Assembly: GCF_030811555.1 (NCBI RefSeq) | Contig: NZ_JAUSQZ010000001.1 | Coordinates: forward strand, 7,747,241-7,811,240 | Direction: 5' to 3' | DNA from: Kineosporia succinea | GTDB taxonomy: Bacteria > Actinomycetota > Actinomycetes > Actinomycetales > Kineosporiaceae | DNA length: 64,000 nt | In this document: in pieces, positions 15,567-47,223 of the stretch | How positions within the stretch are numbered: the stretch's first letter is position 1 | Layout of the letters: each line of letters starts with the position of its first letter | Notes under the pieces: generated by a model | Databases searched by the model: none | Told to the model about the DNA's origin: nothing | The model's input: the letters and a program-made list of their open reading frames with translations, nothing else | Position numbers and translations under genes: made by a program

Positions 15567-15734
15567 AGACGCTCCCCCCGCCTCGTCCTGACGAAGAGTC
15601 ACCCTACAACTACGGACAGATGACGAAAGAGGGAATCCGAAAGCGAAGGTCCGGGAGCCGCGGCTGGATAGGAGGCGATTCGGGCGGGTACCAAGGAAGT
15701 ACCCGCGCACCCCCTGGGCGGGTGTGAACCTGCT

Positions 15735-15778
15735 GAGCCGCACTGTCCGGAACCCCCTCCGCCGGGACAGTGCGGCTC
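15735..15778 (-). terminator. Hairpin after the serine hydrolase gene
   Basis: GAGCCGCACTGTCC (15735-15748) and GGACAGTGCGGCTC (15765-15778) form a perfect 14-bp stem, 19 nt beyond the stop of the minus-strand hydrolase gene. Confidence 0.75.
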
Positions 15779-15796
15779 GGCAGCACCTCGTCCGCT

Positions 15797-17053
15797 TCAG
15801 GACGCGGGGGTCAACCCGCGCAGCGCGTCGGCGACGGTCTGCGGGACCGGCTTGCCGAGCATCCGGCAGGCGGTCACGTCCTGCGCGGCGAACGCGACCT
15901 GGGCGAAGCGGGTGGCCCCGTCGGTCTCCGTGGTGTCGCCGGGCTCGGCCGTGGTGTCGCTGACGGCGGTGCGCCGCCCGTCGGCGGTGGCGATGGCCGT
16001 GCTGTGGTGGCCCAGGGTGTCGCCACCGTGGCCCCACACCGGACCGCAGGCCGACTCGATCTCGAAGATCCCCAGACCGTAGCCGCCGCGGATCGGGTAG
16101 TCCGCCGGCACGTCCACCGTCTGCTTCATCTGGTTGAGCTGCTTCTGCGAGAACAGCTTTCCGCTCAGCACGGCGGAGAAGAACGTCGCGGTGTCGTCGG
16201 CGTCGGACACCACGGCACCGGCCGCACCGCCCCAGCCGCCGATCGGCCAGGCCGAGGTGTCGGTGTAGGTCGGCCGCTCGCCGGTGAAGCCCACCGCATA
16301 GCCGTGGGCGTAGCCCTTGCCCGTGTTCGTGGCGTACGGGTCGGCGAAGTAGGTGTGCCGCAGCCCGAGCGGGGCCACGATCCGCTGCTGCACCAGCTGC
16401 GCCAGGCTCTTGCCGGTCTGCTTCTGCAGGATCAGGCCGATCAGCGTGTAGTTCGTGTTCGAGTAGTTCCAGCTGGTGCCGGGGGCGAAGTCCGGGTCGT
16501 GCGAGAACGCCACGTCGAGCAGCTCCTGCTCGGTGAACACGTGCTCCGGCTCGCTGGTGAGCCGGGCGAAGAACGCTTCGTCGCCGGTGTAGCTGAACAG
16601 GCCGCTGGTGTGGTTGAGCAGCATCCGCACGGTGATGTTCGCGCCGTTCGGCACCACCCCCGGCAGGTACTTCTGCACCGGCTGGTCGAGCCCGACCCTG
16701 CCCTGGTCGACCAACTGCAGCGTCAGCGTGGACATGAACGTCTTGGTGTTGCTGCCGATCTCGAACTGGTCGCCGGCCCGGAGCTTGCGGCCGGTGCTGA
16801 TGTCGGCCAGCCCGGCGGTGGTGGTGGACACGCGGCGGCCGTTGTCGATGCGGGCCAGGTAGCCGGGGGCGCCGGTGCCGAGGACGTGCTTCGACACCTC
16901 GCGCATCGTGACGTCGTCAGGACTCTGTGCGGCGTGGGCGGACGCGGTGCCTGCGCCGGCGACCACGCCGGACCCGGCCAGCACGGCGGAGGCGATGACC
17001 AGCGCCTGCGTGCGGCGGGCCCGGACGGTCGGTGCGGCAGTCGTTGTCGTCAT
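15797..17053 (-). CDS. Secreted serine hydrolase, beta-lactamase / D-Ala-D-Ala carboxypeptidase family (S12)
   Basis: A 418-residue protein with a signal peptide (MTTTTAAPTVRARRTQALVI, hydrophobic core, cleavage near ASAHAAQS). Active-site motifs in order are Ser-x-x-Lys in IGSNTKTFMST, Tyr-x-Asn in WNYSNTNYTLIG and His-Gly-Gly in VWGHGGDTLGH. The layout (MLLNHTSGL, PLGLRHTYFAD) is that of Streptomyces R61-type DD-peptidases and class C-like esterases. It may trim peptidoglycan or hydrolyse peptide/ester substrates outside the cell. A role in beta-lactam resistance cannot be claimed from sequence. Confidence 0.9.
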   Translation of the reverse strand: MTTTTAAPTVRARRTQALVIASAVLAGSGVVAGAGTASAHAAQSPDDVTMREVSKHVLGTGAPGYLARIDNGRRVSTTTAGLADISTGRKLRAGDQFEIGSNTKTFMSTLTLQLVDQGRVGLDQPVQKYLPGVVPNGANITVRMLLNHTSGLFSYTGDEAFFARLTSEPEHVFTEQELLDVAFSHDPDFAPGTSWNYSNTNYTLIGLILQKQTGKSLAQLVQQRIVAPLGLRHTYFADPYATNTGKGYAHGYAVGFTGERPTYTDTSAWPIGGWGGAAGAVVSDADDTATFFSAVLSGKLFSQKQLNQMKQTVDVPADYPIRGGYGLGIFEIESACGPVWGHGGDTLGHHSTAIATADGRRTAVSDTTAEPGDTTETDGATRFAQVAFAAQDVTACRMLGKPVPQTVADALRGLTPAS

Positions 17054-30668: not shown

Positions 30669-32096
30669 TCAGAAGGCGGTATTCATGACCGCCTCGACCA
30701 GGACCTCCCCCACCCCGGTCAGCCGGACCGTGCCGGCCGGGCGGTCGGCCACCAGCAATCCGCGCCGCTGCAGCCCCTCGAACCGCGCACCCCAGGGCTC
30801 GTCGAACAGGGATCGTCCGCCGAAACGCTCACGGTGCACCTCGTCGCGCAGCGGCTGCAGCGTCGAGAGCGCCATCTTGATCGCCCGGGACTCGGTGGCC
30901 AGGTCGCCGAACCGGGTCGCCGAGGCCAGCGGCAGCACCCCGCCCTCGACCATCTCGATGTACTTCAGCGCGTTCACCTCGGTCATCGCCTCCGAGCGGC
31001 GGCAGCTCGAGCTGCCCCCGAGCCCGATCGCGACCTCCGCGTCCTGCCGGGTCTGGTCGACCATGATGCCCTTCCAGCGCTCCGGCGGCTTGTCGCCCCG
31101 GTGGAAGTACATGGTGGGGTGCTCGCCGTACCCGGCCGCGGTCAGCCCGGCCGCCACCACCTCGCGCATCTGGTACTGCTCACCGAGGGTCGGCCAGTGA
31201 TGCCCGGACTCCTCCAGACGTGAGCGGTAGGAGGGGAACTGCCAGGCCGCCGGCCGGTCACCGGCCACGCCGGTGCGGGTGTCGGCGTACGAGCGCAGGT
31301 GCAGCTTGGTGCAGACCACGCCGGGCACGTCGTGTTCCAGCACGAGGGCGAGGTCGCGGGCCACACCCTCCACGGTCTGGTCGAGCAGGCCGTACATCAG
31401 GTCGATCGTCACCCAGTCGTAACCGAGACGGGCCGTGGTGTCGAGGAAGTCGTGGCACTCGGCCTCGGTGTGCTCACGGCCGCTGAGTTTCAGCACCTGG
31501 TCGTCGAACGACTGCACGCCGCAGGACACCTTGGAACAGCCCAGATCCTGAAGACGACGCAGCAGCGGCTCGGTCAGCGTGGTCGGGTCACCCTCGAAGC
31601 GGATCGTGGTGTCGTCGGTGAAACCGAAGTGCGAGCGGTAGAACTCGAGCAGGCGCGACACCGAGTCCAGCCCAATCAGCGACGGGGTGCCGCCGAAGAC
31701 GTTGAACTCCCCCACCGGCGCCTCGGCCAGCCGGGGCACCCGATCCAGCCAGAGCTTCGCCTCGGCGATGTTGAGATCCACCCAGCGGTCGATCTTCTCG
31801 CGCCTGACGTCGTCGGGTCCCTTCACGATCACGACCGGGTACTGGCAGAAACGGCACCGGTAACTACAGGTCGGGATGTACGACCACAGGTGAATGGGGC
31901 GGGTGCCGGCCAGTTGCGCGTCGAGGTCGTCGATGAAGGACGACGGGGAGACGTCGGGGATGTCTCCCGGGAACACGTGGGAACCGAAGGGGTCGTTGGT
32001 GACGTACTCCAGCAGCGCCGCGTTCTCGGGCCGTTCGAGCACGTCGATGACGGCCGGCCGGGGGAACGCCGGGTCGATCGTGGTGAGCGAATCCAT
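30669..32096 (-). CDS. HemN/HemW-like radical SAM protein
   Basis: A 475-residue iron-sulfur enzyme. The cluster motif is CSYRCRFC (Cys-x3-Cys-x2-Cys), followed by FNVFGGTPSLI, RFEGDPTTL and SKVSCGVQSFDD, all hallmarks of coproporphyrinogen-oxidase-like radical SAM proteins. It differs from HemN in its N-terminal ~80 residues and in a GLGGSSSCRRSEAMTEVN segment near residue 345. It starts one base inside the stop of the upstream glycosyltransferase gene, so the two are co-translated. It may act on a heme-like substrate or carry out a separate radical modification with that glycosyltransferase; this is inference. Confidence 0.85.
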   Translation of the reverse strand: MDSLTTIDPAFPRPAVIDVLERPENAALLEYVTNDPFGSHVFPGDIPDVSPSSFIDDLDAQLAGTRPIHLWSYIPTCSYRCRFCQYPVVIVKGPDDVRREKIDRWVDLNIAEAKLWLDRVPRLAEAPVGEFNVFGGTPSLIGLDSVSRLLEFYRSHFGFTDDTTIRFEGDPTTLTEPLLRRLQDLGCSKVSCGVQSFDDQVLKLSGREHTEAECHDFLDTTARLGYDWVTIDLMYGLLDQTVEGVARDLALVLEHDVPGVVCTKLHLRSYADTRTGVAGDRPAAWQFPSYRSRLEESGHHWPTLGEQYQMREVVAAGLTAAGYGEHPTMYFHRGDKPPERWKGIMVDQTRQDAEVAIGLGGSSSCRRSEAMTEVNALKYIEMVEGGVLPLASATRFGDLATESRAIKMALSTLQPLRDEVHRERFGGRSLFDEPWGARFEGLQRRGLLVADRPAGTVRLTGVGEVLVEAVMNTAF

Positions 32097-34750
32097 CAGA
32101 ACACGCCTCCGTTGCCGAAATAGTCGTGGGCCTCGCCGGATTCCCGGTCTTCGCAGTACTGCCGCACCATCTCGCGGAACCGGTCTTCGTCACCGGTGTC
32201 GCGCACCTCCTGGAGGCAGTCGGGCAGGGGCGGCGGATACCCGATGTCCGGGCCGACCTTCGCGCGCAGACGGGCGAACAGCTCCTCGGCGAACTCGAAG
32301 TACAGCCGGAAACAGGGCGTCTTGTACGAGTGGATCGGCAGGTAACTGTGCAGGTGCGTGTCGGCCGTGATCTCCGGGATGCGCGCGGCCATCCGCCGCG
32401 CCAGCCCGGGCGAGAGCAGGTCGATCACGCCCTCGTCGTCGAGCAGCGAAGGGGTGAGCACGGCGGCCAGGATCATGTTCTTCGGCATGAAGTCCTTGAT
32501 CGAGAACTCCCAGGCCTGAACCGCTTCCGCCTCGGTGAGGTCACGGCCGCCCGGCCTCATCGACTCGGTGGGCCGGATGTCGCGCATGGTGATGATGCCA
32601 CCCGAGCCGTACGCCCGCCCGGCCACCACCTCGTCGATCGCGTGATCCACCCGCCGCGGGTTGATCTCGACCCGCGAACCCGGCACGTAGACAATGTCCT
32701 CGCCGGTGGCCCGCACCAGGATGCCGAAGTCCCAGTCGTCGGACAGGTGACTGACCAGGCGGCCGTTCTCCATCTGGTACGACAGCTCGATGCCCCCCAC
32801 ACGCTGGTAGGAGCGCCGGTCGACCGCGAACCCCTTGCCGTCGGGAAACCCGCCGAATCGTGACCAGGCCACCCGGCGGCTGCGGATCGTGCGGTCGATC
32901 GCCTCCCACAGCAGCGGGCGGCCCGCGAAATGCGCCGCGTCGTAGTAGTAGTCGCACACCCCGATCGCAGCCTTCTCCCCGTCCATCGCCGACAGCAGTT
33001 CCCACAGCCAGTCGGGGGCCACCCGGCAGTCGGCGTCGGCCGAGACCAGGTAGAAGCGGCGCGTGGCGTCGTCGCCGTCCCGCTCCGCGGCCCGGGCCGC
33101 GGCCAGGTCCATGCCGGTGCGCCGGGCACACGAAACGCCCTGCTCGCTCTCGTGGATCACCCACAGCCGCAGCCCCTCGTGACGGGACGCGAGCTCACGG
33201 GCCAGCGAGACCGTCTCGTCGCGGGAGTTGTTGTCCACCAGCAGGATGTCGAACAGGCCGCGATCCAGCGGGCCGCCGGGACCGGTCTGGCCGGCCAGAC
33301 CTTCGATCACCGCCGGCAGGTTCGCGGCCTCGTCCTTGACCGGCAGCACCACCGTCATCCGGGTGCCGGCCTCCAGCGGCGGCACGGTGTCTCCCGCCCA
33401 CACCGGCGCCGTGACCACACCGGTGAGCAGATCGTCCACCGTCTCCGCCGCTCGGCTCCGGCCGAAGTAGCGCTCACCCCGGGCCCGGTTGTGCGCCGAG
33501 ACCCGGCTGTGCAGGCGGGGATTGGTCAGAAGCTCGACCACGTCGGCGAGGAACTCCGGGGTCAGGGGCGCCTCGTCCTGGGAGGAGACCTCGAGAACCG
33601 GCGCGTGCAGGCCCTTGCGGCCGTAGACCGTGTCGTAGAGCGCGTAACGCGTGGTCAGGTAGGGCACGCCGGACGCGATCGCCTCGCCGATCGGGTTGCC
33701 GTAGCTCTCGTAGTCGTACGAGGTCAGGAACGACATCAGGTCGGCCTCGGCGAGCAGGTCGGCGACCGAGAAGGCGTGCGGCACGTCGAGATCGCGGGGT
33801 GCGAGCCGGCCGCCGAAGATCACCCGGTCGCTCACCCCGAGCCGCCGCGCCTGCTCCTCCAGGGCCGCGACGGTGGGCGGGTGCTCGGTCGGGTCGCCGG
33901 CCAGGAACAGGTACACCGGCCGGTCGTGGATGCGGTGGCGCAGCGCCGCGATCAGGTCGATCTCGCGATCGGCGCGTTTCTGCGGGATCAGGCGGGTGCA
34001 GCGGGCGATCAGCGCGGCCTCGGCGGGGATGCCGTGGGCCTCACGGAAGCCGATGCCCACGGCGGAGCGCTCGAAGTCGAAGGTGTTGTGCAGCACCCGC
34101 AGGTCTCGCAGGTCCGGAACCCATTCCAGGGTGCGGCGACGCGCGTCTTCGTGCAGCGCCAGGTAACGGATGTACGGGCTGTTCAGCGGTTTCGGGGCCA
34201 GCGGGTAGGGCGGGGAGCCGTACTTGCCGCTCGACGGTTCGCTCGTCCACATCAGGTCGTGGTCGTGCCAGAGCACGAAAGGACGCCCGATCGCGGGCCC
34301 GTAGCGATCGATCGCCCGGTAGAGGGCCCGCGTGTAGGCGATGTTCTCCGGCAGGGTGCCGTTGCCGACCAGCACCGCGGTGACCCCGTGCCGCCGCCAG
34401 GTCGCCTCGATGCGCCGGGCCAGGGCCTCGACCACCACGTCGAAACAGCCCTGCAGCGGGGTGCCGAACCGCACGGCCCGCAACGTGGAGGCGACGAAGG
34501 CGGGGTTGTACCAGGGGATCGAGTCGAGGCCGTCGACGCGGACCAGCTCGACCCAGGGCGGCAGACCGTCGGCCTCGTCGGTGTACGGCGCGAAGAACCG
34601 GCCCTTGTCCTCCTTGATGTCGTAGCCCACGTCGAGAAGCACACGGTGCCCGCGCTGCCGGAAGGCGTCCGCCAGCTTCAGCGACTCGACGACCACACCG
34701 GACAGCGGCGTTCCGTCGAACGACACACACCAGAGCACGGATTCAGGCAT
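32096..34750 (-). CDS. Two-domain glycosyltransferase (GT4-like plus GT2-like)
   Basis: An 884-residue cytoplasmic protein. The N-terminal half (1-440) is GT4/GT-B-like: RCTRLIPQKRADREIDLIAA, then YDYESYGNPIGEAIASG with the nucleotide-binding Glu-x7-Glu. Residues ~455-720 are GT2/GT-A-like: TVVLPVKDEAANLPAVIEGL, VDNNSRDETV and the metal-binding VSADADCRVAPDWLWEL. The last ~160 residues are an extension I do not recognise. It is the first gene of a two-gene operon with the radical SAM gene. It may glycosylate a secondary metabolite or a cell-wall intermediate. The substrate is not indicated. Confidence 0.85.
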   Translation of the reverse strand: MPESVLWCVSFDGTPLSGVVVESLKLADAFRQRGHRVLLDVGYDIKEDKGRFFAPYTDEADGLPPWVELVRVDGLDSIPWYNPAFVASTLRAVRFGTPLQGCFDVVVEALARRIEATWRRHGVTAVLVGNGTLPENIAYTRALYRAIDRYGPAIGRPFVLWHDHDLMWTSEPSSGKYGSPPYPLAPKPLNSPYIRYLALHEDARRRTLEWVPDLRDLRVLHNTFDFERSAVGIGFREAHGIPAEAALIARCTRLIPQKRADREIDLIAALRHRIHDRPVYLFLAGDPTEHPPTVAALEEQARRLGVSDRVIFGGRLAPRDLDVPHAFSVADLLAEADLMSFLTSYDYESYGNPIGEAIASGVPYLTTRYALYDTVYGRKGLHAPVLEVSSQDEAPLTPEFLADVVELLTNPRLHSRVSAHNRARGERYFGRSRAAETVDDLLTGVVTAPVWAGDTVPPLEAGTRMTVVLPVKDEAANLPAVIEGLAGQTGPGGPLDRGLFDILLVDNNSRDETVSLARELASRHEGLRLWVIHESEQGVSCARRTGMDLAAARAAERDGDDATRRFYLVSADADCRVAPDWLWELLSAMDGEKAAIGVCDYYYDAAHFAGRPLLWEAIDRTIRSRRVAWSRFGGFPDGKGFAVDRRSYQRVGGIELSYQMENGRLVSHLSDDWDFGILVRATGEDIVYVPGSRVEINPRRVDHAIDEVVAGRAYGSGGIITMRDIRPTESMRPGGRDLTEAEAVQAWEFSIKDFMPKNMILAAVLTPSLLDDEGVIDLLSPGLARRMAARIPEITADTHLHSYLPIHSYKTPCFRLYFEFAEELFARLRAKVGPDIGYPPPLPDCLQEVRDTGDEDRFREMVRQYCEDRESGEAHDYFGNGGVF

Positions 34751-36055: not shown

Positions 36056-37354
36056 TCACCGGGTGTCCGGGACGGCGGGAACCGGCGCTTCCGGGTGGAG
36101 CTCCGGCGTCCCGGGGGCCTCCACCCTGCGCAGGAGCACCAGCAAGGGGCCCGCCATGGCGGTGGTCACCAGCGCCATCACGACCATCATGGTGAACAGC
36201 TGGGTGTCCAGGACACCCAGCTGGACACCGGCGTTCAGGATGATCAGCTCGGTCAGGCCGCGGGTGTTCATCAGGACGCCGAGCACACCGGCCTCGCGCC
36301 AGGGCATTCCCGCGGCCCGGGCCGGGACGCACGCCCCGATGAACTTGCCCGCGCAGGCGACCACCAGGATCGCGGCGAGCTCCAGGTAGTTGCGGGCACT
36401 GAGCGAGGCGATGTCGACGTTCAGCCCGGTGACGATGAAGAAGACCGGCAGCAGGACGGCCGTGGTGCCCTTGAGCAGCGGGCGCACCGGAACACTGCTC
36501 TCGTCGCGCGGCATCACGAAGCCCAGGACGAAGGCCCCGAAGATGGCGTGGATGCCGATCCAGGTCGTGGCGCACGCCGACAGGAACACGGCGGCGGCCA
36601 GCACCGGAAGGAGGTGCAGCAGCCCACCCCGGCGGGCGATGGCCGGCACCAGCACGGCCAGGAGCGGGCGCACGACGGCGAACATGACGATCAGATAGCC
36701 CACGGACAGCGCCAGGATCCCGAGCAGCTGCCCCTGCCCGCGGGCGGTGACCGTGGCCGAGACGAATGCCAGCAGGCACCAGGCGATCACGTCGTCCACG
36801 GCGGCACCGGCCAGCGCCAGAGCGCCCACCCGGGTGCGGAGCAGCCCGGAGTCGCCCAGGATCCGGGCCAGCACGGGGAACGCGGTGATCGCCATCGCCG
36901 CCCCGAGGAAGAACACGAAGCCCGTGTGATCGATGACCGCGCCGTTCACCACGTCGTGCTCGGGGTAGAGCACCAGCGCCAGCGCCGCCCCCAGCCCGAA
37001 GGCGACCAGGACCGAGAAACCCGACACGGCCCCGGCCGTGAGACGCCGCCCGGCCAGGAGACCACGGTTGAACTCCCAGCCGATCCCGAACATGAACAGC
37101 AGCAGACCGACGTTGGCCACCACCGACAGGCTCGAGCGGACCTCCGGCGGGAACAGGTGCCCGGGCAGGTCGCCGGGGAACAGCCCGAGCAGGCTGGGGC
37201 CGAGGGCGATGCCGGCGGCGATCTCCCCCAGCACCGGGGGCTGACCGAACCGGCGCGCCAGCCCGGCCAGCGCGGCGCCGACGAGGAGGATGACGGCGAC
37301 GGCGGTGAGCACGTGGGCCAGGGTCAGGTCGGCGGGCGTGGCGTGACTGTGCAC
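36056..37354 (-). CDS. Cation/proton antiporter (CPA2, NapA/KefB-like)
   Basis: A 432-residue membrane protein with about 12-13 hydrophobic segments. Family motifs are RFGQPPVLGEIAAGIALGPS, FMFGIGWEFNRGLLAGRR, AAMAITAFPVLARILGDSGL, ALAGAAVDDVIAWCLLAFVS (the paired Asp of the ion site), HAIFGAFVLGFVMPRD and GVLMNTRGLTELIILNAGVQ. No TrkA-N domain follows, so it is the short form. GTG at 37354 follows GGAGGGGAGC. It would exchange Na+ or K+ for H+ across the membrane. Whether it belongs to the adjacent biosynthetic locus is not clear. Confidence 0.92.
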   Translation of the reverse strand: MHSHATPADLTLAHVLTAVAVILLVGAALAGLARRFGQPPVLGEIAAGIALGPSLLGLFPGDLPGHLFPPEVRSSLSVVANVGLLLFMFGIGWEFNRGLLAGRRLTAGAVSGFSVLVAFGLGAALALVLYPEHDVVNGAVIDHTGFVFFLGAAMAITAFPVLARILGDSGLLRTRVGALALAGAAVDDVIAWCLLAFVSATVTARGQGQLLGILALSVGYLIVMFAVVRPLLAVLVPAIARRGGLLHLLPVLAAAVFLSACATTWIGIHAIFGAFVLGFVMPRDESSVPVRPLLKGTTAVLLPVFFIVTGLNVDIASLSARNYLELAAILVVACAGKFIGACVPARAAGMPWREAGVLGVLMNTRGLTELIILNAGVQLGVLDTQLFTMMVVMALVTTAMAGPLLVLLRRVEAPGTPELHPEAPVPAVPDTR

Positions 37355-37595
37355 GGCGGGCTCCCCTCCGGGAACGGATGTCCGGCGCTCCGGACCGGGA
37401 CGCAGCGCTCCGGCGGGGATTCCGGGATCGGGGCGACGTCGGGACGCCGCGGCCCCCCATTCTGCGCGACGACCCGCCGTCGCGCGGACCCCCGCCCCGA
37501 GGTCCTTCCCAGATCCGCGCTTTGCGGCGCCACCGGCCACTGCCGCTGTACTCCCGCTGTCCCGGAGGTACTTTCACGGGCCTCGCGCCTGTCTC

Positions 37596-38312
37596 GTGGA
37601 CCCCGTGACGTCGCACTGGTTCGAGAGATACGGACCGCCCGCCCCCGTCCGGCTGGTCTGCCTGCCCCACGCCGGAGGCGGGGCGAGTGTCTTCCAGCAC
37701 TGGCCCGGCCGGGTGCCCGGCCGTCTCGAGGTGATCGGCACCCGGCTGCCCGGCCGCGAGAGACGGCTGCGGGAAACCCCGCTCGAGGACTGGGACGAGG
37801 CGGTCACCGCCTTCGCGGACGCCGTGAACGGCCAGATCGAGCCGCCCTACGTCCTGTTCGGGCACAGCCTCGGCGCGATGCTCGCCTACCAGGCGACCGT
37901 CGCCCGTCTCACCCCGGCGCCGCTGAAACTCGTTCTGGCCGGTTGCCGTTCACCGGACGTGCCCAGCCTGCTCCCCCGCCTGCACGACCTCCCCGACCCC
38001 GAGCTCGCCGCCGGCCTGGGCGACCTGACGCAGACGCCGCCCGAGGTGCTCGCCGCACCGGCCCTGCGCCGGCTGTTCTTCCCGATGCTGCGGGCCGATC
38101 TCCGGCTGGCCGAGACCTGGCCCCCGGCAGAGGGTCTGACGGTACGGGTGCCCCTGGTGACGATCGGTGCGAGAGACGACCCGGTGGCCCCGGTCTGGTC
38201 GCAGGACGGCTGGAAGGCCCTGGCCGGGGCCGGCCTGACCCGGTTCGAGGTACCGGGGTCGCACTTCTTCGTGCACGACCCCGACACCTTCCGGGCCGCG
38301 CTAGAGACGTGA
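37596..38312 (+). CDS. Type II thioesterase
   Basis: A 238-residue alpha/beta hydrolase of the RifR/GrsT group that removes aberrant acyl or aminoacyl groups from carrier proteins, or releases them as product. Motifs are RLVCLPHAGGGASVFQHW, the nucleophile FGHSLGAMLAY, VPLVTIGARDDPVAP and the catalytic His in PGSHFFVHD. GTG 37596 or GTG 37605 may be the start. It converges on the ATP-grasp gene with a 12-nt overlap and marks the left side of the halogenation locus. With no other thioesterase present, it may be the release enzyme. Confidence 0.92.
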   Translation: MDPVTSHWFERYGPPAPVRLVCLPHAGGGASVFQHWPGRVPGRLEVIGTRLPGRERRLRETPLEDWDEAVTAFADAVNGQIEPPYVLFGHSLGAMLAYQATVARLTPAPLKLVLAGCRSPDVPSLLPRLHDLPDPELAAGLGDLTQTPPEVLAAPALRRLFFPMLRADLRLAETWPPAEGLTVRVPLVTIGARDDPVAPVWSQDGWKALAGAGLTRFEVPGSHFFVHDPDTFRAALET

Positions 38313-39788
38313 CCGGCTGCTCTCCCGGAGCTCTTCGGCCACCCGCCGGTACCCGGCCCGGGCGGCCGGGAGGGCCGTGGCCACGGAGATCACCCCCAGA
38401 CGCCCGATCTCCAGCGCGCCCAGCATGTACCCGAACGTCCCCGTGCGGCTCGCGTCGCTGAACGCGGTGCCGCTGCGCTCGAGGGCCCGGATCGCCGCCT
38501 CCGGATCGAGGGAGCGGTAGGCCGGGTCGATCAGGCGGTCGGTGGCGAAGTACACCCGGGGACGACCGTCGGGCGCCACGTACTCCTCGGCCGTCTCGTC
38601 GAAAGTCCCCTGCACCAAGGCATCGACGAAGAAGTAAGGGGCCGTGCCGCCCCCCATGCGCAGGTTCACCTCGACGGCGTGGTGCTGCCAGTGCGTCCCG
38701 GTGCGGGCCGAGACGAAGTCGACACTGACCAGGCCGGTGACCCCGGCCGCGGCCAGGGCCTGACCGGCCTGACCGGCCAGGCGGCGGATCTGACGCCGGT
38801 ACTCCGGCCGGGCCGGGAAGGTGGCCCCGGTGAAGATCTGCCGCTCCGGGCCACCGAGCACCTGGTCCTGGGTGGACACGACCCGCGCCTCCTGCCCGGG
38901 CACCAGCATCACCTGGGCCGACGGCGACGTCACCTCCTCGCCCTGCACGAAACACTCCACGGCGGCGCCGCACCGTTCGAGTTCCTGCCGGTAGTGCGCC
39001 CAGTCGTCGGGCGGGGAACCGTAGACGGCCCGGGACGGCAGCTCCCGGGCGATCCAGCGCACCAGCCCGGGGCCGGGTCCCGGAGCGCCGGCGAAGCTGA
39101 AGGTGGCGTTGCCGCTGGCGCCGAACCCCTCGTTCAGCTTGACCATCGCCGCCGCCAGATCGGGCTGTCGCGAGCGCAACTCGGCGAGCGCCCCCACCAC
39201 GTCACCCTCGTCGCGCAGGCCCTCGACGCCCTCCGCGACCGGTAGCCCGGCCGCCCGGAAGAACGTGCGGCCGCCGCTCTTGGTGCCCAGCACCGCCAGG
39301 TCCGGATCGGGGGCGAACAGCGGGACCCCCAGCTCCAGGGCCAGGGAACGCTCTTGCGGGGAGCCGTTGAACGCGATGATCAGGGCGTCGGCCGGGTCGC
39401 CGATCGCCTGCCGCAACCGGTGCACGAGTGCCGGGCTGCGCCGGATCTTCACGGTGAGCGGAACCGGGTCGGGGTCGTCACACGGTAAAAGGGTCAGGCG
39501 GCGCCAGGATTCGGCATCCGGTGCCATCAGTTGCAGGGAGTAGCGCAGGAACGCCGGATCGATGCCGACGCTGCTGAGGAACACCACACGCCCGCCCGGG
39601 CGGCGCAGTTTCCGCAGGGCGTAGAGCATGCGCTCCTCGTAGTGCATGACGCCGGGTATCTTCGCCAGCCCCGCTGCACCGAGCGTCATGCTCGGCAGCA
39701 CCACCAGGGTTCCCGGGCCGGGTTCGGCGAACGGATGGCGCATGGCCCGCTGAAGCATCCGAAACTGTTGCTGTTCAGCATTTTCCAC
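38301..39788 (-). CDS. PGM1-like ATP-grasp peptide ligase
   Basis: A 495-residue protein resembling pheganomycin ligase PGM1. A pre-ATP-grasp domain (about 25-180; GTLVVLPSMTLGAAGLAKIP, GRVVFLSSVGIDPAFLRYSL) is followed by an ATP-grasp core: LGTKSGGRTFFRAAGLPVAE, MVKLNEGFGASGNATFSF and the metal-binding HHAVEVNLRMGGG. Such enzymes use ATP to join a carboxylate to an amine, making peptide bonds without carrier proteins. GTG at 39788 has GGAAGCAGG upstream. It is divergent from the adenylation gene and shares its promoter region, so it is the best candidate for coupling the halogenated amino acid to a peptide or another amino acid. Confidence 0.88.
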   Translation of the reverse strand: MENAEQQQFRMLQRAMRHPFAEPGPGTLVVLPSMTLGAAGLAKIPGVMHYEERMLYALRKLRRPGGRVVFLSSVGIDPAFLRYSLQLMAPDAESWRRLTLLPCDDPDPVPLTVKIRRSPALVHRLRQAIGDPADALIIAFNGSPQERSLALELGVPLFAPDPDLAVLGTKSGGRTFFRAAGLPVAEGVEGLRDEGDVVGALAELRSRQPDLAAAMVKLNEGFGASGNATFSFAGAPGPGPGLVRWIARELPSRAVYGSPPDDWAHYRQELERCGAAVECFVQGEEVTSPSAQVMLVPGQEARVVSTQDQVLGGPERQIFTGATFPARPEYRRQIRRLAGQAGQALAAAGVTGLVSVDFVSARTGTHWQHHAVEVNLRMGGGTAPYFFVDALVQGTFDETAEEYVAPDGRPRVYFATDRLIDPAYRSLDPEAAIRALERSGTAFSDASRTGTFGYMLGALEIGRLGVISVATALPAARAGYRRVAEELRESSRSRL

Positions 39789-39901
39789 CGGAGCACCTGC
39801 TTCCGTGACGGTATCGGCCGGAGGCCGGCCACCCGATCGCACGCCTGCGCGAGCGGCCCGCGCGACCGGCCTGGACAACGCTTTGTCTCATTCAGATTAC
39901 A

Positions 39902-39931
39902 TTGACCTTTCGGACATCTCGGACCTAGGGT
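39902..39931 (+). promoter_or_regulatory. Candidate promoter of the halogenation operon
   Basis: TTGACC (39902-39907) and TAGGGT (39926-39931) with an 18-nt spacer, in the AT-rich part of the 273-bp gap between the ligase and adenylation genes. It gives a ~125-nt leader before ATG 40062. By-eye assignment. Confidence 0.4.
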
Positions 39932-40061
39932 TTGGTTGCGCCTGTCAGAGGCCCCTTTTCAGGGATTCCTCGCAACTCCCCTCGTTCCCGGTGACACCTG
40001 CGACTGTCCGGGAACCGCCGCAGACACAGGATCACCTCGACCGGAAAGGCCCGGTGGATCG

Positions 40062-41927
40062 ATGAGCACCTTAGCCGAGAGCGCACCCGCGGGCGCCGAA
40101 GACCATCTGCTCACCCAGTTCGGCGCCGTGGTGTCCCGGCACCCCGGGCGCCGGGCGGTCTCCGCTCCCGACGGCGATCTCACCTACGCCGAGCTCGACC
40201 GGGCCGCCTCCGCCCTGGCCACCCGCCTGCGCCGGGCCGGGGTCGGCCGCGACAGCGTCGTGCCAGTGATCGCCGAAGCCGGAACCACGCTGCTCACAGC
40301 ACTTCTGGCGGTGGTCAAGGCGGGTGGCGCATACCTCCCGATCGATCCGGCGAACCCTCCGGAGCGGATCCGGCGGCTGGTCACGACCTCCCGGGCGGCG
40401 GTCGTGGTGGCCACCGCCACCACCCGCGCCGGGCTCCCCGCCGACGAGCACCTGCAGGTCGTCGACCCCGCCGGGGCCGGTGAGCCGGCCGGGGCCGACC
40501 CCACCGGCCCACCGGCTCCGCTCTCCCCCCACGACCTGGCCTACGTGATCCACACCTCCGGCTCGACCGGTGAGCCCAAGGCCGTGGCGGTCGAGCACGC
40601 GAGCGTGGCCCGGCTGCTCACCGTCACCCGCTCCCTGTTCGACCTCGACGAGAACGACGTCTGGACGATGTTCCACTCGGCCGCCTTCGACTTCTCGGTC
40701 TGGGAGATCTGGGGCGCCTGGACCACCGGCGCCCGGCTCGTGGTGGTGCCGTACGAGATCTCCCGCTCCCCGGAACGGTTCTGGCGCCTGGTCTCCGACC
40801 AGGGGGTCACCGTTCTCAGCCAGACCCCCTCCGCGTTCCGGCAGTTCATCGCCAGCGATGCGAACCTGTCACCCCGGCACGACGATTCACTCCTGGAGCT
40901 GCGCCTGGTCGTCCTCGGTGGGGAGCGGCTCGACGTGGAGATGCTGCGCCCCTGGTTCGAGCGGCACAGCTCCGACCGCCCCCGTGTGGTCAACATGTTC
41001 GGCATCACCGAGACCACCGTGCACGCCACCCACCGGTTCGTGCGTCCGGGCGACCTGAACGAGCCGGCGATCAGCCCGATCGGCGAACCGCTGCCCCACC
41101 TCGGTTTCCACCTGCTCGACGAGCAGGGCCGGCCGGTCCCCACCGGGCAACCCGGCGAACTGTACGTCTCGGGTGCCGGTCTGGCCCGGGGATACCTGCA
41201 CCGGCCCGACCTCACCGGCCAGCGCTTCCTGACCCTCGACTCCGGCCTGCGGGTCTACCGCACCGGAGACCGGATGCGCCGCACCCCAACCGGTTACGAA
41301 TACCTGGGCCGCACCGACGACCAGCTGTCGGTCCGCGGGTTCCGGATCGAGCCCCAGGAGGTCGAGGCCGCCCTCACCGTCCTGCCCGAGGTGGGCGCGG
41401 CGGTGGTCGGCACCTCCGAGCACGGCCCCGGCGACGTCCGGCTCGTCGCCCGCATCGTGCCCCCGGCGGGCACCGCTCCCGACGAGACGTGGTGGGAACC
41501 CCTGCGCCCGCGGCTGCTGGCCCGGGCCGCGGCCTCCCTCCCCCGGCACATGCGCCCCTCCACCTACCTGCCCGCGGCCCGGATCCCGCTCACCCCCAAC
41601 GGCAAGGCCGACCGCAACGCCGTGGCGGCAGAAGACCTCGACGGCCCGCGGGCGCACCACGAGCCCGGCCCCGAGATCGAGGCCGGCATCGCCACGGTCT
41701 GGCAGAAGATCCTGGGCATCAGCCATTTCGGCCCGCACGACGACTTCTTCGACCTGGGCGGCACCTCGCTCAGTGTCCTGCGCATGTTCGAACAGGTGAA
41801 CAGCACGTTCGCCACCGACCTCGACCTGACGGTCCTGATCGACGGGGTCACCGTCGCCGCGCTGGCCGACCGGGTCGAGACAGCCCGCACCACCCGAAAC
41901 GAGCTGGCGGAGGCCGAGACCCGATGA
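40062..41927 (+). CDS. NRPS adenylation-carrier didomain, predicted threonine (SyrB1-like)
   Basis: A 621-residue A-PCP protein. A-domain motifs are [32 protein letters not shown] (A3), [12 protein letters not shown] (A4), [15 protein letters not shown] (A5), [20 protein letters not shown] (A6), YRTGDRMRR (A7), [13 protein letters not shown] (A8) and [10 protein letters not shown] (A10 Lys). By eye the specificity residues read D-F-W-S-V-G-M-V-H-K, close to the threonine code DFWNIGMVHK. The carrier domain has [10 protein letters not shown] with Ser569 for phosphopantetheine. Codon 4 is TTA (40071-40073). It starts a five-gene coupled operon, as SyrB1 does before SyrB2. Confidence 0.95.
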
Positions 41928-42868
41928 CCACCCAGACATCCCCTTACTCCCTGTCCGACAGCGAGCTGCAGCACTTCCAGGCCAACGGTTTCGTCGGCCC
42001 CTTCACCCTGTACGACCGGGAGGAGATGAAGCAGATCTGGCGCCGCAAGCGCATCGAGCTGATGGATCGCTCAGCCGCCGTCTACCAGGACGAGGCGGCG
42101 AAGTCCGGCGCCACGAACATCGCCAACTACGACCGGCACCTCGACGACGACTTCCTGGCCGACCACATCAGCCGGCCCGAGATCGTCGGCCGGGTCGCCA
42201 GCATCCTCGGGCCCGACGTGCTGTGCTGGCGCTCGGAGTTCTTTCCCAAGTACCCCGGCGACGAGGGCACCGACTGGCACCAGGCCGACACCTTCGCCAA
42301 CGCCTCCGGCACCCCGCAGATCCTGTGGCCGAACGGCTCGGACTTCGGGGGAACCATCACCGTGTGGTGCGCCTTCACCGACGCCCTGATCGAGACCGGG
42401 TGCCTGCAGTTCATCCCGGGCACGCACCAGAGCATGAACTACGACGAGACCAAGAAGATGCACTACGACCCGGCCCAGTCGAACGTCGAGAAAGACGGTG
42501 TCCGGAGGGGATTCTTCGGCTACGACTACCGCGAGCTCCAGGTCGACCCGGACTGGAAGCCCGACGAGTCCCAGGCCCGCTCGATGGAGATGCACGCCGG
42601 GCAGTTCATCGTGTTCTGGTCCACGCTGATGCACGCCTCACACCCGCACGCCGGGCTCTCCCAGCAGATGCGCCTGGGGTTCGCCGGGCGGTACGTGCCG
42701 ACCTCGGTGCGCGTCTATCCCGACACCGAGGAGATCCAGGAGTACGGCGGTCAGGTCAGCCTCGAGCGCTACGGCGCGGTGCTGGTGCACGGTGAAGACA
42801 CCTACGGGCACAACCGCCTGGCCACCGAGACCACCCGGGGCCACGCCTTCGGCGTCCACGCACGATGA
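41924..42868 (+). CDS. SyrB2-type non-haem Fe(II)/2-oxoglutarate halogenase
   Basis: A 314-residue enzyme of the phytanoyl-CoA dioxygenase fold. It matches SyrB2 along its full length from memory: [80 protein letters not shown] and [18 protein letters not shown]. The facial triad reads His119-x-Ala121 ... His237. The Asp of hydroxylases is Ala, which frees a site for chloride, so halogenation rather than hydroxylation is expected. Expected reaction: chlorination of the gamma-methyl of threonine on the carrier of the previous protein. Start ATG overlaps the preceding stop by 4 nt. Confidence 0.96.
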
Positions 42869-44046
42869 GCGCGGCGGAGAGCGTCGACGACAGCGCATCC
42901 CGCACGGCCGCCGCCGTCCTCGACGTGGCTCCGCTGCTGCACGCCCTGGGCACCCCCCAGCGGGTGCACCTGACGGGTCTGCCCCCGACCGGGCGGGCCC
43001 GTCAGCAGGCCCAGGAACTCCTGTCCTCGGTCACCGGCGACGACTCACTCGTGGTCACGCCCGACGCCCAGGGGCATTCCGCGGCCGAGCTCATCATCGG
43101 CCGGCGGCTGAACCGGGCGATCCCCTTCCCGGTCGGTCCGGTCGGTCCGGTCGATCCGGCCGGTCCGGCCGGTCCGGCGGGCGTCCGGGCCCAGCGCGTC
43201 CCCCGGGAAGTGGAAACCTCCGACGGCTCGGTGCTGCGGTGCTACGTCTCCGGCCCCCGCACCGGCCGCCCGGTGCTGCTCGTGGGCGCCTGCGGTATGC
43301 CGGTCGGGCTGGTCGGGGGCTGGGTGCGGCACCTGTCCCGCGAGCACCGGGTGATCACGTGGGAGAGCCGGGGGCTGTTCGGGCAGCTCTCCGACCCCGG
43401 GTTCGACGGCCGCGGCCAGGACCTCACCGCCCAGGCCGGTGACGTGCTCAGCGTCCTGTCCGCGTTCGACCTCGACGACGTGCACCTGGCCGGCCTGTGC
43501 GGCGGGGCGGCGATCGCGCTGGAGGCGGCCGGGCACTCCGCGCGGGTGCGCTCGGTGAGCCTGTGGCACGGCGACTACGAGCTGGGCGGCGACGCCGCGA
43601 AGACCCCGCACCAGCACGACATGCAGGCGCTCCTGGTGCAGGCCGGGCGCAGCCGCGAGAAGGCCGGCGCCCTGCAGCGGCTGTTCCGGCGCCCCTCCAC
43701 GCTGGCCGCGCTGCGCGACGACATCGCCCACCACCTCTACTACCCCTACGCCACCGCCGAGCTGCTGTACCGGTACGGCCGGCTGAACGGAGCGATCATG
43801 ACCACCGACTGCCGCCCGCTGCTGGCCCGGGTCACCCAGCCCACCCTGGTCGTGACCGGTCCCGACGACCACACCGCGCATCCCGACGGCTCCCGGTACG
43901 TGTCGGCGCACCTGAGGCGGGCCCGGCTGGTCGAGCTGGCGCACCACGACCACCTCGCCGCTTTCGACGCGGGGCCCCAGATCCTCTCCCTGGCCGACGA
44001 TTTTCTCGCCTCAGACACCCCGGCCGCCGAGAGGAGCAGCCGTTGA
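42865..44046 (+). CDS. SyrC/CmaE-type aminoacyl-carrier transferase (alpha/beta hydrolase with Cys nucleophile)
   Basis: A 393-residue protein. An N-terminal ~110-residue segment ends in a short Pro/Val/Gly repeat ([17 protein letters not shown]). An alpha/beta hydrolase follows: [20 protein letters not shown], the nucleophile elbow [12 protein letters not shown] with Cys212 instead of Ser, the acid region [14 protein letters not shown] and the His region [12 protein letters not shown]. SyrC and CmaE use this Cys to carry the chlorinated aminoacyl group from one carrier protein to another. Here it would move the group from Ser569 of the A-PCP protein to Ser582 of the FkbM-carrier protein. ATGA overlap with the halogenase gene. 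Confidence 0.92.
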
Positions 44047-45917
44047 ACAGCCACGACCGGCTGGCGGCCGTGCTCGCCCACCCGGCGGTCGCGGCGGCCA
44101 CCGTCAGCGCCGGTGGCGTGCTGCACGTCGTCCCCGACCCCGCCACCGCCCCGGTTCTGCACCGGGCCGCGACTCTCGACCTGCCGCCCGGCCTGACGTG
44201 GCACGAGCCCGGCCCCGGTCTGCTGGTGGCGGGCGTGAACCGGCCCGAGACCGAGTTCCTGCACCGCGAGGTGTGGCGCGAGAACGCCTATCTGCGCCAC
44301 GGTCTGACTCTCGCGCCGGGCGCCGTCGTGGTCGACGTCGGGGCCAACATCGGCATGTTCTCCCTGCTGGCCGGCTCCCTCAGCCCGGGCGCCCGCATCA
44401 TCGCCGTCGAGCCGATGCCCGAGCCGGCCGCGGCGGTCACCGTCAACGGGCACGTGCACGACCTCGACCTGACGCTGGTGAACCAGGCCGTCGGAGACCG
44501 GCCCGGCACGATCGAGATGACCTTCTACGCCGGCAACACGGTGATGTCCGGCCGCGACGCCTCCGACACCGAAGACCAGGAGGTGCTGCGCGCCTACCTG
44601 AGCACGTCCCCCGAGGCCGCCGGCCTCGACCTCGACCGGCTGGTGCGCGAGCGGATGACCGGCGAGGTCCGCTCCGTCGCCGTCACCACGGTCAGCGAGC
44701 TGGTCTCCCGGTTCGGGCTGGACACCGTCGACCTGCTCAAGATCGACGTGGAGAAGGCCGAGTGGGAGGTGCTGGCCGGCATCGACGACACCGTCTGGCC
44801 CCGCATCCGGCAGATCGCCGTCGAGGTCCACGATCTCGACGGGCGGCTCGTCCGAACGCTCGAACTGTTGCGCGGCAAAGGTTTCCGGGCCGCCCACGAC
44901 CGTGACCCGAGACTGACCGGCACCCCTCTGCACACCGTGTACGCGCACCGCCCCACCCCCGCCCGGCCCACACGCCTGCCCCGCACCGCGACTCCCACCA
45001 CAAGTCCCAGCCCGGCTCCCCCCTCGACACCCAGCACGCCCCCCGCCCAAGCCTTCAGGCCGACACCGCCGCCCAGTCCGACACCGCCGCCCAGCACGCC
45101 TCCCACCCAGGCCCCCAGTCCGACACCGCCGCCCAGTCCGACACCGCCGCCCAGCACGCCTCCCGGTCAGGCCCTCAGCCCGACACCGCCCCCCAATCCG
45201 ACACCGCCGCCCAGCACGCCTCCCAGCCAGGCCCCCAGCCCGACACCGCCCCTCAGCACGCCCTCAGGTCCGACACCGCCCTCCAGTCCGACAGCGCCCT
45301 CCAGCCAGATTCCCGCCCCGATTCCCGCCCCGGCTCCCTGGCCCACCGCCCGCGCGCTCGCCGCCGACCTGCGCGAGCGCAACGGCAGCGGATGGCCGGA
45401 GCGAGTCGTCCTGGTCAGCTCCCTCGCCGACGTGCCCGACCTGGCCGCCCCGACTGAGCTGACCGACCCCACCGACCCGACCGGTCCGACCGACCTGGCC
45501 CCCCTGGCTGGCATGACCGGCGGGACCGGCGGGACCGGCGGGACCGCCCGAACCGCCCGGACCGACGCGACCGACCCCACCGGCCCGACCCACCCGACCG
45601 GCCCCACCGGCGCGACCGATCGAAACCGGTTCACCGAGGTCACCGAAATCACCGGCAAGACCGGCAAGACCGCCCCGTCCCGCCCCGACGACCACGTCAC
45701 CGCCACTCTCGCCGAGATCTGGGACGAGATCTTCGGCGCGGGCGCCTCCGCCTCCGACGCCGACTTCTTCGAACTCGGTGGCACCTCCCTGACCGCCGTG
45801 CGCCTGATCGACCGGGTCGACGCCCGGCTCGGCGAAGGAGTACTCGAGCCCGACACCGTCTTCACCGCCCGCTCGTTCACCGACCTGGCCGCGGCCGCGT
45901 CCCGGAGCACTCCGTGA
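44043..45917 (+). CDS. FkbM methyltransferase fused to a carrier domain by a long repetitive linker
   Basis: A 624-residue protein starting with TTG 44043, which overlaps the previous stop (TTGA) and has GAGAGGAG upstream. Residues ~60-300 are an FkbM SAM methyltransferase: AVVVDVGANIGMFSLLAG (SAM loop), IIAVEPMPEP and VDLLKIDVEKAEWEVLAG. Residues ~305-535 are a Pro/Ser/Thr linker built on 20-residue repeats, then Thr/Gly/Asp repeats. Residues ~550-620 are a carrier protein, DADFFELGGTSLTAVRL, with Ser582. FkbM enzymes methylate hydroxyls, so in-cis O-methylation of a tethered hydroxy-amino acid is plausible. I know of no described FkbM-carrier fusion in a SyrB-type pathway. Confidence 0.9.
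   Translation: MNSHDRLAAVLAHPAVAAATVSAGGVLHVVPDPATAPVLHRAATLDLPPGLTWHEPGPGLLVAGVNRPETEFLHREVWRENAYLRHGLTLAPGAVVVDVGANIGMFSLLAGSLSPGARIIAVEPMPEPAAAVTVNGHVHDLDLTLVNQAVGDRPGTIEMTFYAGNTVMSGRDASDTEDQEVLRAYLSTSPEAAGLDLDRLVRERMTGEVRSVAVTTVSELVSRFGLDTVDLLKIDVEKAEWEVLAGIDDTVWPRIRQIAVEVHDLDGRLVRTLELLRGKGFRAAHDRDPRLTGTPLHTVYAHRPTPARPTRLPRTATPTTSPSPAPPSTPSTPPAQAFRPTPPPSPTPPPSTPPTQAPSPTPPPSPTPPPSTPPGQALSPTPPPNPTPPPSTPPSQAPSPTPPLSTPSGPTPPSSPTAPSSQIPAPIPAPAPWPTARALAADLRERNGSGWPERVVLVSSLADVPDLAAPTELTDPTDPTGPTDLAPLAGMTGGTGGTGGTARTARTDATDPTGPTHPTGPTGATDRNRFTEVTEITGKTGKTAPSRPDDHVTATLAEIWDEIFGAGASASDADFFELGGTSLTAVRLIDRVDARLGEGVLEPDTVFTARSFTDLAAAASRSTP
45061..45300 (+). repeat. 60-bp coding repeats in the FkbM-carrier linker
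   Basis: Units begin at 45061, 45121, 45181 and 45241 (the last degenerate), each encoding about PTPPPSPTPPPSTPP plus five variable residues. A second micro-repeat of 9 bp (ACCGGCGGG) is at about 45518-45544. Confidence 0.9.
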
Positions 45918-47035
45918 CCTACGCCCCCGGCCGGCTCCGTGACCTCCTGGGCGAGCACGTCGTCCCTCATCTGCCGCAGTGGGAGGCGCAGCGGCAGGTC
46001 CCGCCCTCCGCGTGGAAGGCTCTCGGGGCCGCCGGCCTGCTCGGCCTGCCGCACCCGGTGGCCGACGGCGGTTCGGGGCAGTCGCTGTCCCAGTCGCTGC
46101 CCGCGCTCGAAGAGCTGGGCCGCACCGGGTACGCCGGTTTCCGGGCCGCGGTCGGGGTCCACGCCTGGATGGCCACGCACTACCTGGCCACCGCGGCCGG
46201 GCCGGAACTGCGTGAGACCTACCTCGGCCCGGCGATCCGGGGGGAACGGGTCGCGGCCCTGGCCGTCACCGAGCCGGGAGCCGGTGCCGACCTGAACGCC
46301 CTCACCACCACGGCCGTCCCGGACGGCGACGGCTACCGGCTGCACGGCGCCAAGAGCATGGTCACGAACGCCACCTCGGCCGGATTCGCGGTGGTCGCGG
46401 CCCGCACCCGCCCGGGTGCCACCGGCCCCACCGGGCTGTCGCTGCTGGTGGTCGACCTCCCCGGCCCGGGCGTCACCGTCACCCCGCAGGAGCTGGAGGG
46501 CTGGCACTGCGCCGGCACCGCACACGTCTCGTTCGACGGCGTCCGGCTGCCGGGCCGGGCTCTGATCGGCCGGGCCGGGCGCGGCTTCCACTATCTGATG
46601 CGGGGTTTCCAGTCCGAGCGGGTGGTCGCGGCCGCTCTGGCCGTCGGCGGCACCGACCGTTGCCTGCACGACACGATCACCCACGTTCGCACCCGCCAGG
46701 CCTTCGGGGCCCGGCTGGCCGATCTGCAGTCGGTGCGGCACACCCTGGCCGGGCTGAGCACCGAACTCGCGGCGGCGCGGCTGCTCGTGCGCGACGCCGC
46801 CGCGCGGCTCGACCGGGGCGACCTGGCCGTGAGCGAGTGTTCCGCGGCCAAGCTCTACGCCACCGAGCTCGCCTGCCGGGTGGCCGACCGCTGTCTGCAG
46901 CTGCACGGATCCGCTGGCTACACAGCCGGTTCCACCGTGGCCCGCGCCCATCGGGAAGCCCGCGCCGCCACCATGGCCGCGGGGCCGAGCGAGGTGATGC
47001 TCGATCTGATCGCGAATGTTCTGCTCGACGGCTGA
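45914..47035 (+). CDS. Acyl-CoA dehydrogenase-like flavoprotein, probably acting on carrier-bound substrate
   Basis: A 373-residue FAD enzyme, GTG 45914 overlapping the previous stop (GTGA). Motifs are RVAALAVTEPGAGADLNALT (substrate/flavin loop), GAKSMVTNATSAGFAVVAAR, RTRQAFGARLADLQSVRHTL and LHGSAGYTAGSTVARAHREA. The usual C-terminal catalytic Glu (YEG-T) is replaced (MAAGPSEVM). A Glu in MRGFQSERVVAA (Glu235) sits where isovaleryl-CoA dehydrogenase and PltE-type enzymes have their base. It is the last operon gene. Likely role: alpha,beta-desaturation of the aminoacyl group on the second carrier domain. Confidence 0.88.
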   Translation: MTYAPGRLRDLLGEHVVPHLPQWEAQRQVPPSAWKALGAAGLLGLPHPVADGGSGQSLSQSLPALEELGRTGYAGFRAAVGVHAWMATHYLATAAGPELRETYLGPAIRGERVAALAVTEPGAGADLNALTTTAVPDGDGYRLHGAKSMVTNATSAGFAVVAARTRPGATGPTGLSLLVVDLPGPGVTVTPQELEGWHCAGTAHVSFDGVRLPGRALIGRAGRGFHYLMRGFQSERVVAAALAVGGTDRCLHDTITHVRTRQAFGARLADLQSVRHTLAGLSTELAAARLLVRDAAARLDRGDLAVSECSAAKLYATELACRVADRCLQLHGSAGYTAGSTVARAHREARAATMAAGPSEVMLDLIANVLLDG

Positions 47036-47077: not shown

Positions 47078-47168
47078 GGCCGGCGAGAGAGGCCGGCGAG
47101 AAAGGCCGGCGAGACAGGCCGGCGAGACAGGCCGGCGAGACAGGCCGGCGAGACAGGCCGGCGAGACA
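47078..47168. repeat. Seven tandem copies of a 13-bp unit
   Basis: GGCCGGCGAGACA (first two copies end AGA and AAA) repeats without gaps from 47078 to 47168, just after the halogenation operon. It may also help transcription end there. Confidence 0.95.
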
Positions 47169-47223
47169 GGCATCATCGCGCCGGCTCCGCGCCGAGACCG
47201 GGCGGGTGTGGTTGCATGCCGCG

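Follow-up and report, generated by a model that had tools for sequence, protein, structure and literature searches.

In a stretch of 64,000 nucleotides from the genome of Kineosporia succinea (assembly GCF_030811555.1, a single contig of 8.07 Mb; NZ_JAUSQZ010000001.1, positions 7,747,241 to 7,811,240), referred to here as the window, we analyzed a locus of seven genes whose products may convert threonine by cryptic chlorination into an oxygenated cyclopropane amino acid and subsequently ligate it through an amide bond. We give this reading a probability of roughly one half. It draws on features that can be read from the sequence, i.e., the gene set, its conservation as a unit, the threonine-type code, the iron site of the halogenase, the carrier and transferase residues and the kinship of a flavoprotein with KtzA. 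The first-pass annotation of this DNA had placed seven pathway genes at 37596-47035 of the window, and all seven are present there. Its interpretation, a pathway to a new chlorinated amino acid or short peptide, is partly supported.

Proposed pathway

In the proposed route, a didomain protein consisting of an adenylation domain and a peptidyl carrier protein (A-PCP) would adenylate L-threonine and load it onto Ser569. The gamma carbon would then be chlorinated by a SyrB2-type halogenase, and a transferase with the active residue Cys212 would carry the 4-chlorothreonine onto Ser582 of a second carrier, which is fused to an FkbM methyltransferase. In coronamic acid biosynthesis, CmaE performs a parallel transfer, with CmaA as the donor and CmaD as the acceptor. 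At this stage, the FkbM domain may methylate the beta oxygen, which would prevent both the conversion of the chlorohydrin to an epoxide and a reopening of the later ring. In the KtzA-type flavoprotein, an acyl-CoA dehydrogenase (ACAD)-like enzyme, Glu235 would take the alpha proton and the resulting carbanion would displace the chloride at the gamma carbon. The predicted product of this step is a 2-methoxy-1-aminocyclopropane-1-carboxyl thioester, or the 2-hydroxy compound if FkbM acts elsewhere. Release would presumably be carried out by the thioesterase, and the BesA-like ligase would probably couple the product to a second amino acid.

Conservation and distribution of the locus

Genome G003, of the same genus, matches the window at the DNA level in four pieces between 37610 and 47014. 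The match ends on either side inside the 37 kb stretch compared, which delimits the cluster to these seven genes. Protein identity between the window and G003 lies between 63 and 88% across the cluster (halogenase 88%, ligase 64%), and the nonsynonymous rate (dN) is below the synonymous rate (dS) for all seven genes, in the case of the FkbM gene for the methyltransferase part. The flanking genes scanned in G003 are unrelated and include genes for sugar uptake and regulation, an arabinofuranosidase, a penicillin-amidase-like protein and an ABC protein. Against a general occurrence in the genus stands that a halogenase above the family cut-off was found in just one (G003) of five other same-genus genomes.

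For the wider comparison, a halogenase profile made from two sequences was used with one genome per species, and the best 80 of 227 confirmed relatives gave the 80 loci considered here. These were chosen by the halogenase alone and searched afterwards with the cluster proteins; L019 and L020 apparently represent one locus entered twice. A larger set of 99 sources, in which the two pieces of G003 count as two, served for further searches with the cluster proteins. The FkbM gene and the ACAD gene are each found in 19 of the 80 loci, 17 of which contain both, and 59 loci contain neither (Fisher p = 2.7e-13). Two loci with only FkbM (L012, L076) and one with only ACAD (L059) are cut off by a contig edge close to the cluster, so that the genes missing there are uninformative. 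The remaining locus with only ACAD, L078, has an isoleucine-type A domain. The 17 loci belong to Actinokineospora, Streptomyces, Actinomadura, Streptosporangium, a Pseudonocardiales bin and two Sorangium strains. Across 16 loci, the pairwise distances of five core genes correlate with r = 0.85-0.92, a level reached in none of 2000 permutations, although part of this correlation is due to shared species descent. The thioesterase occurs together with the ACAD in 14 of the 80 loci.

The last operon genes and the ligase had at first been regarded as foreign to SyrB-type clusters. This does not apply to the last operon genes, since FkbM and ACAD accompany the halogenase in 17 of the 80 loci. The ligase is indeed rare and was found in five clusters among the 99 sources (the window, G003, L002, L003 and L016). 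BenE-type transporters, present in some relatives (6 of the 99 sources), suggest that the product there is a small free molecule which is exported. Variant clusters are found in L072, L075 and L076, which have a carbamoyltransferase gene before the A-PCP gene and a diverged FkbM; in L072 and L075 the ACAD gene is located about 7-9 kb from the halogenase gene.

Flavoprotein and its relation to KtzA

In 346 surveyed genomes of the family to which the L002 genome belongs, 29 had a halogenase above the cut-off. Among the 16 regions examined, halogenase, A domain and ACAD are side by side in six, and seven isoleucine-type loci were obtained including L078. All seven contain a carrier gene between halogenase and A domain, and the code of the A domain is DAFFLG(V/M)TF in each, which we take to stand for isoleucine. 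In one of them, L131 (genome G217), the halogenase is located about 25 kb from an open reading frame (ORF) essentially identical to KtzI of the PDB over 423 residues. This ORF lies 8-12 kb from two adjacent tryptophan halogenases and a piperazate synthase. From these neighbours, we identify L131 as the kutzneride cluster and its ACAD as KtzA.

The ACAD-like protein of the window shares 47.1% identity with this KtzA over 363 amino acids (259 bits) and at most 33% with 12 paralogs encoded in the genome of the window. The 27 halogenase-linked ACADs (18 of threonine type including the window, two from carbamoyltransferase loci and seven of isoleucine type) all group in one clade against nine own paralogs and the four nearest ACADs of the PDB, with an IQ-TREE ultrafast bootstrap of 100 and a FastTree SH-like support of 1.0. 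The clade persists after the addition of six RedW-like carrier dehydrogenase relatives, all of which score under the RedW cut-off (19 other proteins in total; supports 100 and 0.999). The supports were read from unrooted trees, and from the 12 own paralogs one was removed by a length filter and two short ones were dropped. Of the 27 sources, 25 allowed a reading of the A code, which is threonine-like in 18 and isoleucine-like in seven. Threonine-type ACADs alone are not monophyletic, as isoleucine-type members nest among them; the ACADs of the window, G003, L002 and L003 form a clade with a bootstrap of 99. Membership in the L-prolyl-carrier dehydrogenases was considered and rejected, with 170.6 bits for RedW against a NCBIfam cut-off of 650 and 152.2 bits for PigA against 500.

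Glu235 is invariant in all 27 halogenase-linked ACADs. It aligns with the glutamate of long-chain ACAD that is replaced by glutamine in PDB entry 8w0z, and this position makes it a candidate for the catalytic base. KtzA is a flavoprotein that reportedly closes a cyclopropane with loss of chloride. Given the grouping with KtzA, the chlorine is probably cryptic in the locus studied here as well and, in contrast to the earlier expectation, probably absent from the final product. Similarly, the ACAD-like protein is probably not a desaturase, and the desaturation step suggested before appears less likely than ring closure with loss of chloride. In the kutzneride pathway itself, chlorination by KtzD is described in a passage of PMC12615548 as a cryptic set-up of the cyclopropyl ring.

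Predicted threonine loading, halogenation and shuttle

The nine code positions of the A domain read DFWSVGMVH in the alignment, presumably a SyrB1-like threonine code, in line with the threonine-type domain of the first-pass annotation. In 43 of 96 sources, the A domain closest to the halogenase has an identical code, and matching motif residues are present in Pseudomonas loci, among others. The transferase is SyrC/CmaE-like and thus agrees with the carrier-to-carrier shuttle named before. Its Cys212, which we assume to be the nucleophile as in SyrC and CmaE, is part of a GLCGG motif that is matched in 17 of 19 FkbM-bearing sources, the two Sorangium loci being the exceptions. The two carrier serines, Ser569 and Ser582 (both in GGTSL), and Cys212 had been named correctly. 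The assignment of the halogenase to the SyrB2 type also holds: it is above the TIGR01762 cut-off and matches SyrB2 (PDB 2fct) with 504 bits and CytC3 with 409 bits. The iron site consists of H119-Q-A121 and H237, with HxA instead of HxD, and the motifs DWHQA and MHAS are kept in all 27 ACAD-linked halogenases checked. With a threonine-type A-PCP beside the halogenase, the HxA iron site and a cysteine transferase, the locus contains a chlorination set of the SyrB1/SyrB2/SyrC type, as had been proposed. No condensation domain was detected in the seven genes by Pfam and NCBIfam searches, likewise as first described. SyrB2 acts on L-threonine and CytC3 on 2-aminobutyrate, according to a passage of PMC8407142.

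FkbM methyltransferase and second carrier

The FkbM domain is above the cut-off of TIGR01444 and contains the S-adenosylmethionine (SAM) motif DVGANIG. FkbM is found alongside the ACAD in 18 of 18 threonine-coded sources and in none of the seven isoleucine-coded sources. As the beta-hydroxyl is an obvious difference between threonine and isoleucine, this distribution points to methylation of the beta oxygen, which may block epoxide closure and ring reopening. The proline/threonine-rich stretch of the FkbM protein was considered as a possible frameshift, which was ruled out since it is an in-frame tandem-repeat expansion. This linker is short in G003, and the fused carrier itself is conserved.

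ATP-grasp ligase

The ligase had been described as a PGM1-like peptide ligase. It is an ATP-grasp ligase by its matches, but the likeness has to be changed to BesA, which is the sole match both in the PDB (8yi6, 2.4e-33) and in NCBIfam (NF042917, 2e-36, 125.7 bits). Strict membership in BesA, an L-propargylglycine-L-glutamate ligase, was rejected, because the score is far under the equivalog cut-off of 750 bits; the PreAtp-grasp model is under its Pfam cut-off as well. A match named PGM1 was not obtained in the Pfam, NCBIfam and PDB searches, for which the presence of PGM1 was unchecked. The protein probably forms an amide bond with an unusual amino acid as its substrate.

Alternative explanations

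Several points weigh against a cyclopropane-forming route from threonine. The ACAD-like protein has one of its better NCBIfam matches with the RedW model for prolyl-carrier dehydrogenases (170.6 bits), the trees were calculated without bona fide RedW, PigA and AnaB sequences, and the activity of KtzA is known here from a review passage and the title of a paper. At 47% identity to KtzA, an altered reaction is possible. The active-site helix differs, with Q233 in 18 of 18 threonine-type ACADs and D233 in 7 of 7 isoleucine-type ACADs. The FkbM domain has no match in the PDB search, so that the beta oxygen is a putative methyl acceptor, and the presence of FkbM together with a carbamoyltransferase in three loci (L072, L075, L076) fits methylation of the beta oxygen less neatly. 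A leaving group on the beta oxygen could be eliminated instead.

The chlorine might also be kept, as in the route of the first-pass annotation. O-methyl-4-chlorothreonine, or its 2,3-dehydro form produced by a true ACAD dehydrogenase, would then leave the pathway as a chlorinated amino acid, or as a chlorinated dipeptide after ligation. A dehydrogenation would be in keeping with the ACAD fold and with a base located as in long-chain ACAD, and part of the largimycin paper describes chlorinated threonine-containing intermediates (PMC9396626). However, the ACAD-like protein belongs to the KtzA clade and is separated from the 19 other ACADs tested, and we regard retention of the chlorine as rather unlikely. 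A cryptic chlorination could furthermore lead to a different ring, either an epoxide as proposed for largimycin or an azetidine formed by attack of the nitrogen. LrgS, LrgH and LrgY cryptically chlorinate threonine en route to the epoxide (described in part of PMC9396626), but the words FkbM, dehydrogenase and methyltransferase are absent from the main text of this paper. Moreover, epoxide closure needs no ACAD and would probably be blocked by O-methylation, which makes such a ring quite unlikely here. It is also improbable that the locus represents a remnant, or that it supplies an assembly line elsewhere in the genome as a sub-cluster. Such a role would be in line with L009, which adjoins a nonribosomal peptide synthetase (NRPS) gene, with further ORFs of the A-domain family in L002, L007, L011, L012 and L072 and with the presence of the cluster in just one of five other same-genus genomes. 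Yet G003 keeps the block alone with dN below dS, and of the 17 loci that have FkbM as well as ACAD, 12 show a single gene of the A-domain family, as determined by ORF clustering within the stretch examined.

If the cyclopropane route from threonine is correct, the principle of chlorination on a carrier followed by closure of a cyclopropane would extend from isoleucine to threonine and would yield oxygenated analogues of 1-aminocyclopropane-1-carboxylate (ACC). ACC analogues affect ethylene metabolism and enzymes dependent on pyridoxal phosphate (PLP). The enzymes would also be a convenient test system for what directs a single halogenated intermediate to an epoxide, an olefin or a cyclopropane. 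As the predicted products are free of chlorine, the search for chlorine isotope patterns suggested earlier would miss them. A more far-reaching proposal, possible but doubtful in our view, is that actinobacteria and Sorangium produce an undescribed family of amino acids from threonine, the 2-alkoxy-1-aminocyclopropane-1-carboxylates, with methylation by FkbM as a built-in protection which redirects the chlorohydrin from epoxide to cyclopropane. In one branch, the strained cyclopropane, of donor-acceptor type, would be incorporated by the BesA-like ligase into a dipeptide, a prodrug that would inactivate PLP enzymes after uptake and cleavage.

Gene layout and neighbouring genes

The last five genes of the cluster overlap by 4 bases at each of the four junctions, which fits a translationally coupled operon. 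Directly 3' of the ACAD stop codon, at 47085-47175, a GAGACAGGCCGGC-like unit is repeated in tandem, as judged by eye.

Table 1. Genes and domains of the seven-gene locus, given in positions of the window
Feature	Position	Strand	Evidence and remarks
Type II thioesterase, GHSLG, probable release/proofreading enzyme	37596-38312	+	Pfam PF00975 1.8e-29; syntenic in G003
ATP-grasp amide ligase (probable), BesA-like	38301-39878	-	PF24923 over cut-off; true start possibly inner GTG/ATG
A-PCP didomain, Thr-type code DFWSVGMVH, carrier Ser569	40062-41927	+	TIGR01733, PF00550
Fe(II)/2-oxoglutarate halogenase, SyrB2 type; H119-x-A121, H237	41924-42868	+	TIGR01762 478 bits
SyrC/CmaE-like aminoacyl shuttle, alpha/beta hydrolase, Cys212 in GLCGG	42865-44046	+	PF00561
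FkbM-linker-PCP gene, TTG start	44043-45917	+	
FkbM methyltransferase domain	44043-44971	+	TIGR01444 1.8e-29; DVGANIG, KIDVEKAE
Pro/Thr-rich low-complexity linker	45000-45660	+	DNA tandem repeats, 60- and 9/54-base units (Tandem Repeats Finder)
Second carrier domain fused to FkbM, Ser582	45690-45917	+	PF00550 7.1e-8; G003 81% identical
ACAD-like flavoprotein, KtzA clade, proposed cyclopropane former	45914-47035	+	PF00441/PF02770/PF02771

A gene for a KefB-like CPA2 antiporter (36056-37540, minus strand) is located 55 bp from the thioesterase gene. Relatives occur in 13 of the 80 halogenase loci, and their association with the ACAD is not significant (p = 0.28). In L135 and L141, they are located between the ACAD and the thioesterase. 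The antiporter was rejected as a member of the cluster, with no match in the 37 kb of G003. Further upstream (30669-34750, minus strand), a fused GT4-GT2 glycosyltransferase gene adjoins a gene for a HemN-like radical SAM protein; both were rejected as members, with no match in the 37 kb of G003 or in the 80 loci.

Additional genes were observed in some of the related loci. Both Sorangium loci contain a cysteine-synthase-like PLP enzyme after the ACAD (L017:17454-18413 and L021:18326-19291, 91% mutual identity), which may act either in tailoring or as a resistant target. In L002, a second A-PCP gene with threonine-like motifs, as judged by eye, is located downstream of the ACAD (15026-17020). 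A haem-oxygenase-like iron oxidase (PF14518) is encoded near the cluster in L003 (4481-5464, minus strand) and has no match in the other 98 sources.

Comparison with known systems

The locus resembles KtzA-KtzD of the kutzneride pathway, responsible for allocoronamic acid, in the carrier-bound amino acid, the halogenase of the SyrB2 family and the ACAD flavoprotein of the KtzA clade. Unlike the window, the kutzneride-type loci have an isoleucine code and separate genes for A domain and carrier. Neither a SyrC/CmaE-like nor an FkbM match was found in the seven isoleucine-type loci, whereas the window has both; a thioesterase is near in three of the seven. The coronamic acid system (CmaA, CmaB, CmaD and CmaE with CmaC) is similar in its A-PCP protein, its halogenase and the transfer to a second carrier, where the cyclization takes place. 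It differs in its substrate allo-isoleucine, and in the cyclase CmaC in place of an ACAD, and it is not known to include FkbM or a ligase. With SyrB1, SyrB2 and SyrC of syringomycin, the locus shares the threonine A-PCP protein, the halogenase and the transferase, and the A-code string is identical at the Pseudomonas loci. In contrast to the window, no ACAD match was found in the stretches of the Pseudomonas loci examined. In syringomycin, the chlorine is retained and the unit feeds an NRPS. Cryptic chlorination of threonine is shared with LrgS, LrgH and LrgY of largimycin, which differ by the epoxide outcome on a line of NRPS and polyketide synthase (PKS), as described in part of PMC9396626. 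BesA of the propargylglycine pathway is comparable as an ATP-grasp ligase serving an amino acid made by a halogenase, but it is distant from the ligase of the window (125.7 bits against the cut-off of 750). The Bes halogenase acts on free lysine, according to a passage of PMC8407142.

No paper on this gene set was found among the matches listed in the open-access literature (titles and starts of abstracts), and no open-access paper was found for 1-amino-2-hydroxy- or 2-methoxy-cyclopropane carboxylates by exact name. The parts of the layout are known: a transferase and second carrier as in coronamic acid biosynthesis, a presumed cyclase as in the kutzneride pathway, a threonine unit as in syringomycin and a ligase distantly related to that of the Bes pathway. 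The layout can be regarded as a variant of the coronamic and allocoronamic acid logic; within the literature searched, its combination of parts, its substrate and its predicted product are new.

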